A stretch of DNA of 64,000 nucleotides from Burkholderiales bacterium (lineage in GTDB: Bacteria > Pseudomonadota > Gammaproteobacteria > Burkholderiales > Burkholderiaceae_C). The DNA is taken from the NCBI GenBank assembly GCA_017307865.1, contig JAFKGE010000022.1, positions 1 to 64,000 of the forward strand, given 5' to 3'. The notes under the pieces were generated by a model. That model was not told the DNA's origin. It did no database searches and saw nothing but the letters and a program-made list of their open reading frames with translations. Each line of letters starts with the position of its first letter. Position 1 is the stretch's first letter. Made by a program: the position numbers and the translations under genes. Of this stretch, positions 27,929 through 30,204 are shown one piece after another.

Positions 27929-28564
27929 CTAGTCGACCGCCTTGGTCGGCGTCTGATGCCGCTGCTCGGGCGCGCCCTCCAGCGCCGCTTCCAGCCACAG
28001 CGCCGCCACGAAGCGCTTGTTGAAAGCCAGCCACAGCAGGATGGGCGTGACCGGCGGCAGCATCAAAAAGCCGAACTGATAGCCGTAGGCGATGGCGTTG
28101 GCGGCCAGCGGCGAATACTTCAGGTAGGCCGCGCCGTAGGGGCCCGAGAGCAGCACCACGTCGCGCAGCCACTGAAAGCCGATGCCCCAGGCCTGCACCG
28201 GCAACAAAATCAGGCTGCCGATCAGGCCCTTGAGCCACCAGCGCTCGGTGCGCGAGGCCAGCAGCATGGCCCACAGCAGCACCAGGCCGTAGCCGTAGGT
28301 GGGGTAGCTGGCCTCGGGCGCCAGCTCGCCCAGCACGTCGCCCTGCGGGCCCTTCATGCGCACCTGCACCAGGGTGTGCAGCACCGCGGTCACGCCGTCC
28401 TGGTGCCAGCCTTCGACCCACGAAAAGCAGGCCTTCATCACCGTGCCCGCCAGCCAGATGGCCGGCGCCGCGAACCAGCGCGCCAGCACGTACCACAGCG
28501 GCAGCAGCACGATCAGCCACAGGATGGACAGCAGCAGAAAGCGGCCGATCAGCGTGTTGCGCAT
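27929..28564 (-). CDS. Exosortase H-associated membrane protein
   Basis: Integral membrane protein (211 aa) with about four or five helices (about 7-27, 30-50, 93-107, 112-130, 164-186). It lies 13 nt after the xrtH-like gene and is transcribed with it. A membrane protein of this size next to exosortase H is a known pairing; the molecular role is not established and may be in substrate handling. The end 'PEQRHQTPTKAVD' is soluble. An F1 repeat follows the stop directly. Confidence 0.75.
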   Translation of the reverse strand: MRNTLIGRFLLLSILWLIVLLPLWYVLARWFAAPAIWLAGTVMKACFSWVEGWHQDGVTAVLHTLVQVRMKGPQGDVLGELAPEASYPTYGYGLVLLWAMLLASRTERWWLKGLIGSLILLPVQAWGIGFQWLRDVVLLSGPYGAAYLKYSPLAANAIAYGYQFGFLMLPPVTPILLWLAFNKRFVAALWLEAALEGAPEQRHQTPTKAVD

Positions 28565-28577
28565 GCCCCGGCCTCCG

Positions 28578-29090
28578 TCAGGTGGCCGCGCCCGGCGGCA
28601 GCGCGTGCTTGTCGCGCTTGGCGACCACGCGCATCCACAGCAGCCACACCACCAGCACGTCCAGCATGATCAGCGCCTGCCACATGTACAGGTGCGCGAA
28701 CTCGAACACCTTGAAGTTCCACTGCCCGATGAAGAACAGGCTGACGATGCGCAGCAGGTTGACGCCCTGCACCGCCAGAAAGCCCAGCGCGATGCCCCAG
28801 AACTTCATCGCCCAGCTGGACGGAAAGGCCAGCATGGCCGCCACCAGCACGATGGTGGCCTCCACCCCGTTGCAGCCGGCCTCGATCGACACGCCAAAGC
28901 CCGTCCTGGCGCTTTGCAGCACGCGGTCGTACGAGATGACCGAAGGGTCGATGACGTGCACGATGGCCGCGCTGGCCCGCGCCAGCCAGCCCGTCCACGG
29001 GTGCACCACCGCGGCCTGCACCGGGTTCAGCATCTCGATGCCGAACAGCACCGCCTGCACGGTCAGAAAAATCAGGAAAAAACGTTTCAA
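28578..29090 (-). CDS. xrtH: Exosortase H (IPTL-CTERM-type)
   Basis: Transpeptidase-like membrane enzyme of the exosortase/archaeosortase superfamily (170 aa), which cleaves and anchors C-terminally tagged surface proteins. The three catalytic residues are visible: C73 in IEAGCNGVEA, R114 in NLLRIVSLFF and H133 in EFAHLYMW, each in a membrane-embedded segment. The start is taken as TTG at 29090 (KRFFLIFLTVQAVLFGIE), with GGGTGA about 6 nt upstream. An ATG at 29195 would add 35 residues that do not look like the family. The divergent gene 230 nt away encodes a predicted substrate. Confidence 0.85.
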   Translation of the reverse strand: MKRFFLIFLTVQAVLFGIEMLNPVQAAVVHPWTGWLARASAAIVHVIDPSVISYDRVLQSARTGFGVSIEAGCNGVEATIVLVAAMLAFPSSWAMKFWGIALGFLAVQGVNLLRIVSLFFIGQWNFKVFEFAHLYMWQALIMLDVLVVWLLWMRVVAKRDKHALPPGAAT

Positions 29091-29320
29091 GACGTCACCC
29101 GCGACAAAAGACCCAGAGCATCGCAGCAGCCGTCCCTGCGGCAGCCAGCACCCACCGAGGGGCAGTGTAATGGCTCCGCTTGCAATCCCCTTCAAAGGGT
29201 CAGCAAACCATCATCGTTGCCAAAAAGCAACAACGATCGCGAGCACCACCAACCGACAGGCATTGGACAGTTATATTCCAAACGTTGTATCGGCTGTGTT
29301 ACTTAACTTTGTAAATTGAG

Positions 29321-30204
29321 ATGATGTTTACTCTTTATCCCCCCCCCCCGCAACGATTGCGCTCAGCCGCACCCTTGCCGCCGCCTCGCTGATCCTGGCC
29401 TGCAGCGCCGCCGGCGCGGCCACGGTGACCACCCCGGCCGGCGTGGTGAACGGGCCTTATAGCGATGCGCCTGCTTTCGATGTGTGGCAACGCGTGAATA
29501 TCGCCGCGATCGCCTCGGTCGGCATTACGGGCGATTACCCACGCAGCGGCAACGGCTCCGTGCTCTTGGATTCCGGCGACGTCAACGGCAGGACTACCTG
29601 GCAATACTCCCGCACCGGCGGCTTTGGCCCCTTGAGCAGCTTTACCTCGGCCACCTACGAGTGGTATCGCGATGCGAGCAGCACCGTGGCTGCCCATTTC
29701 CACCCAACGTACCTGATCCAGGTGGACAACGACGGCAACCCTGCAACAACCGGCGACCAGTCGTGGCTGTTCTTCGAACGCGGCGCCATGGGGCCCTATA
29801 CAGCGCCCACCGGGACGTTGGTGACGGAGACGATCAACGACAGCACCAAGATGTGGGTATTCCAGGTCGGTGCCGCCAACACACAGAATCCCGTCACCAC
29901 CATGGCGCAGTTCAAGGCTGGCGCCTACGTCCCTGAAGCCGGTGGTTTTGCCATTCCGGCCACGGCCACGATCTTGCGCATCCGTGTGAGCACCGGCACC
30001 GGTTGGCCCGGCACCTTCCGCGGCGCCGTGGACAACATCGGCATTGTGGCCGCGTCCAGCGTGGGCCCGGACAATTTCGAGCTGGCGCCTCCTCCACCCG
30101 CTACCGTGGCACCCGTGCCCGCCACCGACCTGTGGGCTCTGCTGAGTCTGTCGAGTCTGCTGGCCGGCGTGGCCGCCTGGCGCCAGCGCCGACGTCGCAG
30201 CTGA
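29321..30204 (+). CDS. IPTL-CTERM-like exosortase substrate, frame broken at a poly-C tract
   Basis: Predicted secreted surface protein. The long frame encodes a signal peptide (ALSRTLAAASLILACSAAGA), a beta-rich domain (about 230 residues), and a C-terminal sorting tail: PVPATDLWALL, a hydrophobic helix, then RQRRRRS. The tail is a variant of the IPTL-x-x-WG signal. No start codon exists in that frame between an in-frame TGA at 29317 and a GTG at 29425, which lies after the signal peptide. ATGs at 29321 and 29324 are in another frame and would join the signal peptide if the 11-C tract (29339-29349) were 12 or 9 long. Either the gene is phase-variable and off here, or the tract was mis-called. 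Confidence 0.7.
29339..29349 (+). repeat. Homopolymeric 11-C tract at the 5' end of the exosortase substrate gene
   Basis: Eleven consecutive C residues, 15 to 18 nt after the candidate ATG codons and just before the signal-peptide codons. This is the position expected for translational phase variation by slipped-strand mispairing. It is the only tract of this length I noticed in the window. Confidence 0.9.

Follow-up and report, generated by a model that had tools for sequence, protein, structure and literature searches.

Exosortase substrates form a large class of proteins, most of them of unknown function. Among the closest switching systems described, frameshifts in a homo-G tract of the signal-peptide region turn the Neisseria gene pilC on and off, as outlined in PMC5354566. 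Homopolymeric tracts at the 5' end of genes have been presented as a general inactivation switch, inlA being an example (as outlined by Orsi et al. 2010, PMC2831843), and the mononucleotide repeats recorded for Akkermansia muciniphila include a C10 repeat in an acyltransferase gene (PMC3048395).

The stretch of DNA analysed here (the window, 64 kb) holds a gene for a predicted exosortase substrate, in which a run of eleven C separates the likely start codons from the signal peptide. The best explanation of this arrangement, and one that we hold to be probable, is that slippage of the C tract would act as an on/off switch of an exosortase-sorted surface protein. The locus comprises the following features:

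27929..28564, minus strand: exosortase H-associated membrane protein gene (NF041730, 190 bits, cut-off 35)
28578..29195, minus strand: gene for exosortase H (XrtH), oriented divergently to the substrate gene, its precise start being uncertain (TIGR04177, 203.8 bits, cut-off 86)
29321..29326, plus strand: two adjacent ATGs, the likely start or starts (sequence; distance to the end of a VTT motif as in the orthologs)
29339..29349, plus strand: C11 homopolymer, the proposed switch (run statistics)
29350..29424, plus strand: putative signal-peptide coding segment, with a hydrophobic core and a small-residue cleavage region (by eye; translation, alignment)
29390..29392, plus strand: TGA ending translation from the ATGs at the observed tract length (translation)
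29425..30201, plus strand: predicted mature secreted protein, conserved (P0001 translation, dN/dS)
30115..30195, plus strand: predicted IPTL-CTERM sorting signal, made of the motif, a transmembrane helix and a basic tail (TIGR04174)

The first-pass annotation had called the gene an exosortase substrate, and the profile searches bear this out. The C-terminus of the translated product, P0001, matched IPTL-CTERM model TIGR04174 with 27.3 bits against a cut-off of 20.5, and Pfam PF18203 fell just under its own cut-off (20.5 vs 20.8). The XrtH cognate to IPTL-CTERM proteins is encoded by the adjacent gene, which is present in a single copy in the genome; one copy each was likewise found in 6 of 6 Ottowia genomes tested (the window genome, probably an Ottowia, and five others). 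The N-terminal signal peptide, both after the tract and in the orthologs, was seen by eye only. For the mature protein no solved relative was found, the one PDB sequence match having an E value of 0.47. The product of the window gene is thus, as predicted from these matches, an exosortase-H substrate with an IPTL-CTERM signal. The window genome (G000) holds seven IPTL-CTERM genes; in the other six an ATG stands in frame with the signal peptide (by eye), and the window gene alone carries a frame-breaking tract.

The C11 homopolymer was read directly on the plus strand. Upstream of it, the ATGs at 29321 and 29324 share a frame that yields a 23-residue peptide and stops at the TGA at 29390. The signal-peptide frame (29350 onward) is open from 29320, just after a TGA at 29317-29319, until the stop at 30202, and its first ATG, GTG or TTG is the GTG at 29425, past the signal peptide. 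The first-pass annotation had therefore been right that the 11-C tract breaks the frame, separating the ATGs from the signal peptide, and that the signal-peptide frame is startless from the TGA at 29317 until after this peptide. Its modulo-3 arithmetic on the tract length, by which the frame is regained at C12 or C9, is also correct. A homopolymer of at least nine residues in the 5' coding region, the length that PhasomeIt is described as using for G tracts, is thus present, and its length decides whether start and product share a frame. Genome searches found no second genome of the window species, and the length of the window tract is known from one assembly.

Such a run is exceptional in its surroundings. 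In the window, C/G runs of lengths 1 to 6 numbered 22669, 7656, 1632, 296, 50 and 9, respectively; there were none of lengths 7 to 10 and one of length 11. Markov simulations (20 at each order) produced no run of at least 11 at orders 2 to 5; at order 1 they averaged 0.05 such runs per 64 kb. Four C/G runs of at least 9 occur in the whole 3.9 Mb genome:

C11, 29339-29349, plus strand: before the signal peptide of the window gene
Length 15 (C15/G15), L013 3828-3842, contig C14: intergenic, beside a long inverted repeat (by eye)
Length 9: within the opening codons of an ABC transporter gene, in frame
G9, L018 505-513, contig C81: some 140 nt ahead of another IPTL-CTERM gene

The G9 on contig C81 is a possible promoter-spacing tract.

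The signals around the window tract were less favourable. Beside the ATGs at 29321 and 29324 the Shine-Dalgarno sequence is weak only (GAG), unlike in the genes of a sister genome described below, which counts against phase variation. A consensus search at the window gene found neither a sigma-70 promoter nor a terminator, and this was also counted against it. RNA around the tract folded no better than shuffles (z -0.18), and a local repeat search gave nothing informative on the switch. A 24-nt direct repeat with 71% identity, its copies 120 bases apart, is formed by 29231-29254, before the start codons, and 29351-29374, just past the tract.

The orthologs of the window gene were then compared. 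Ortholog searching gave matches in 9 of 60 genomes, the window genome included, the closest being G018 with 73%. Alignment searching of genome contigs recovered five loci, among them L098 (the G018 ortholog, 73%), L099 (67%) and L100 (65%); a single-protein query of genome contigs returned 42 stretches with no relative among them. The C tract was absent from all three close orthologs, whose start codons lie 38-39 codons ahead of the end of the shared VTT motif. Counted by hand, the distance from start to motif end is 113 nt for the window ATG and 114-117 nt for the orthologs. L099 and L100 begin at an ATG with a ribosome site, and the G018 ortholog would most simply begin at a GTG.

Between the window gene and G018, dN was 0.196 and dS 0.746 over 284 codons (dN/dS of about 0.26), which indicates that the window gene evolves under purifying selection. 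From about residue 27 of P0001 onward the values were 0.17 and 0.73, and the signal-peptide part was weakly conserved (dN 0.61, dS 0.89 over 26 codons). Purifying selection, together with the tract-less orthologs, suggests that the protein is maintained and that the frame break belongs to the window genome. Since this genome has one frame-breaking tract among its seven IPTL-CTERM genes and the close orthologs have none, the tract would be recent or local there, which likewise counts against phase variation.

The same arrangement recurs in a sister genome, G027 (a 2.0 Mb draft), of which all 13 C/G runs of at least 9 were examined. Seven of them lie between a ribosome site with ATG and the signal peptide of an IPTL-like CTERM gene (L103, L104, L108, L110, L111, L113 and L229), as poly-C of lengths 13, 11, 11, 10, 10, 10 and 10; if such genes fill 24 kb, the chance of this coincidence is p ~6e-11. 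These genes are named IPTL-like because six of the seven scored below the IPTL-CTERM cut-off (15.6-19.5 vs 20.5 bits) in a whole-protein scan covering those six; the genome-level search put its 15 G027 matches over the cut-off, and the L229 tract gene is outside those 15. In none of the seven does the ATG with the ribosome site share the frame of the signal peptide. L108 has another upstream ATG in frame, lacking a ribosome site, and L229 has distant GTG and TTG codons in frame, so for these two the out-of-frame call rests on the ATG with the ribosome site.

Taken together, the 15 genes of the search and the added tract gene in L229 make 16 genes in G027. The tract is intact in 7, interrupted in 2 and absent in 3, the 5' ends of the remaining 4 being unseen or broken. 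The interrupted tracts (L228 and L226, on contigs C94 and C198) read C7 followed by A at the eighth place, have similar leaders and are perhaps locked-off relics. Most G027 leaders align mutually, yet the tracts between these related flanks count 10, 11 or 13 C. The leader of the window gene shares no homology with that of G027. At L105 2244-2254 of the same genome, a C11 follows ATGATGTTTAC, 11 letters identical to the window leader, about 110 nt ahead of a glycosyltransferase-like gene; the shared letters may be due either to chance or to a shared origin.

The search was extended to 29 Ottowia genomes, which contained 257 C/G runs of at least 9, a total that includes some at contig ends, likely sequencing artefacts. 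Runs of 14-29 at the ends of draft contigs in L044, L048, L049, L051 and L052 are likely artefacts of this kind that inflate the tract counts. In G001, the paralogs L188 and L190 have a common leader, the mean column identity across the aligned 5' region being 91%. One paralog carries C17 and is in frame, and the other carries C13 followed by an AC repeat and is out of frame. Tract lengths thus differ between paralogs in sister Ottowia species. Further start-proximal tracts with a signal peptide were seen at:

L187 (G001): the gene itself is not a CTERM protein, the IPTL match being the next gene
L202 (G026)
L106 (G027)
L240, ~1529-1539 (G014, a single-contig genome): C11 between ATG and signal peptide, out of frame, no IPTL match

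Outside Ottowia, L230 (~1501-1510, G339) has a C10 between the ATG and the signal peptide of a TctC-like receptor, again out of frame and with no IPTL match. Besides the window gene, 13 Ottowia genes have the same layout, with differing lengths and all three frames present. Signal-peptide tract counts are lower bounds, since the L240 and L230 signal peptides were added by an all-three-frame reading of nine loci and elsewhere the longest frame only was read.

Motif searches, with rows merged by site, and a comparison of the two strands served as controls. A gapped search for GGAG-ATG-C9 gave 9 sites (13 rows) in 5 of the 29 Ottowia genomes and 0 for the reversed pattern. By eye, seven of the nine enter a signal peptide (five in G027, one in G026, one in G014), and the sites in G008 and G001 are not followed by one. 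The stricter AGGAG-ATG-C10 occurred in 6 of 399 family genomes, with 0 reversed; the 399 include six Ottowia, none of them positive. Its 6 sites (7 rows) comprised one that enters a signal peptide by eye (L230), four that do not and one at a contig end. Among 98 unique interior tracts of chosen loci, partly picked near IPTL genes, 18 had a Shine-Dalgarno sequence with ATG at 8-60 nt before the tract when read on the C strand, against 4 when the same tracts were read on the G strand (p 0.002). Across the genus, the matches listed, compared by eye, showed coincidences of poly-C and IPTL only in G000 and G022; the full lists of G027 and G001 gave more, which places the effect in few species. The poly-C layout thus appears strong in few species and not general in the family. 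This rarity was weighed against phase variation, as were the sub-cut-off scores of the six G027 genes, the in-frame codons of L108 and L229, the unrelated leader of the window gene and the single length known for its tract.

Two tracts of different layout were left out of the counts, namely a G9 inside a gene in G022 (L097) and the run at L096 2106-2116 in G136. The latter is a coding-strand G11, in frame, in a Gly linker directly ahead of a CTERM-like sorting signal; slippage there would remove the anchor, not the whole protein. Separately, L201 1190-1200 (G013) and L134 near 1500 (G026) hold acyltransferase-like membrane genes (by eye) with C11 and C10 tracts near their starts. Acyltransferase-like membrane genes are a class that is often phase-variable.

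The alternative that survives best is that the tract grew by chance and that the gene is fixed off and heading to decay. It would fit the position of the window gene as the only one of seven in its genome to be broken by a tract, the absence of the tract from all three close orthologs, the weak Shine-Dalgarno sequence and the resemblance of the interrupted G027 tracts to locked-off relics. We nevertheless consider it unlikely, because the 284 codons past the tract are stop-free and under purifying selection, and one sister species has kept many such tracts. Moreover, rapid mutation is to be expected of so long a tract, and a fixed length would be unlikely to persist. The first-pass annotation had seen here the design of a phase-variable surface gene, and this gained support from the purifying selection, the ortholog starts and the layout of the 13 other Ottowia genes.

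It is quite improbable that the assembly miscounts the tract and the gene is in frame after all. Errors are common in homopolymers, and the assembly is a draft of 91 contigs, but the tract lies in the interior of a contig of 117 kb. Even after a miscount there would remain a long C tract, probably an unstable one, and so this alternative explains only the present state.

The distribution of frames bears on a third alternative, in which the full protein would be made steadily in small amounts, through programmed ribosomal frameshifting or through transcriptional slippage at the C run. In principle, ribosomes or RNA polymerase may slip on runs of C. A programmed frameshift requires the same shift throughout and, as a rule, a stimulatory structure. 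From the 18 C-strand cases with a Shine-Dalgarno sequence and ATG, 12 signal-peptide genes were picked by eye, one of which (on G027 contig C163) has a second frameshift further downstream. Relative to the ribosome-site ATG, 3 of the 12 are in frame, and 5 and 4 are at the two offsets. Adding the window gene gives 3/5/5, with no departure from equal thirds (p 0.74), and adding L240 as well gives 3/5/6 (14 genes); the test was done on 3/5/5, and L230 was kept out as non-Ottowia. The 3/5/6 frames fit random slippage and are not what a programmed frameshift predicts, the offsets being mixed instead of fixed in direction. Furthermore, the folding score given above points to no stimulatory RNA structure, and the three close orthologs need no shift. 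This alternative is thus very improbable, although the case against transcriptional slippage, which is compatible with any offset, is weaker than that against frameshifting. A start at a non-canonical codon of the signal-peptide frame, such as ATT 29356, would exploit the opening of this frame from 29320 but is hardly conceivable, as no Shine-Dalgarno sequence precedes that codon and the orthologs begin upstream at ATG or GTG.

Returning to switching by slippage of the C tract, the recurrence of the arrangement in other genes of related bacteria, with differing run lengths, suggests that it is probably a random on/off switch. The window protein would be secreted and then anchored or processed by exosortase H. 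Replication slippage would alter the length of the C tract, and only lengths keeping the start codon and the signal peptide in frame would give an exported protein; the assembly length, C11, would give the short peptide. We infer a benefit from switching.

With the balance tilting slightly in its favour, a broader proposal is that some Ottowia have a phase-variable XrtH-sorted repertoire, each cell displaying a random subset, built on a 5' module that recurs from gene to gene and runs from a ribosome site and start codon through some 5-15 codons and a poly-C of 9-17 to the signal peptide; the window gene would be a member acquired separately, in a species with few tracts. Several Ottowia species appear to share the layout, and one seems to apply it to a whole set of IPTL-like XrtH substrates, in which case the surface proteins within a population would be mixed at random. 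If C tracts switch exosortase substrates at random, these proteins are probably exposed, and the selection acting on them (from host, phage or biofilm) probably varies. Tract states that silence a gene would then explain why many exosortase substrates are never seen, and such genes would easily be mis-annotated as pseudogenes. This would parallel the random switching of pili and opacity proteins in Neisseria.

A literature search, which covered few subscription journals, found no report of phase variation of exosortase substrates or in Ottowia. Homopolymer switching is a known kind of mechanism, as pilC illustrates; within the literature searched, exosortase substrates as a switched repertoire look new. 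Like the window species, Akkermansia muciniphila has exosortase and long tracts, but in the account of PMC3048395 these are tied to capsule genes and not connected with CTERM proteins. The tracts outlined by Orsi et al. 2010 (PMC2831843) are likewise near the start codon, with frameshifts leading to an early stop. The over-represented ones in that outline are poly-A/T, whereas those of Ottowia are C of 9-17 in GC-rich genomes and, in G027, are concentrated in one sorted-protein class. As with pilC in the outline of PMC5354566, the homopolymer of the window gene stands near the 5' end of the coding region for a predicted exported surface protein, and the presence of two paralogs in the genome is a further likeness. 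PilC is a pilus protein and no exosortase substrate, and the window tract differs in consisting of C on the coding strand, ahead of the hydrophobic core. Finally, the window gene and its neighbour match both models of the IPTL-CTERM/exosortase H system, TIGR04174 and TIGR04177.
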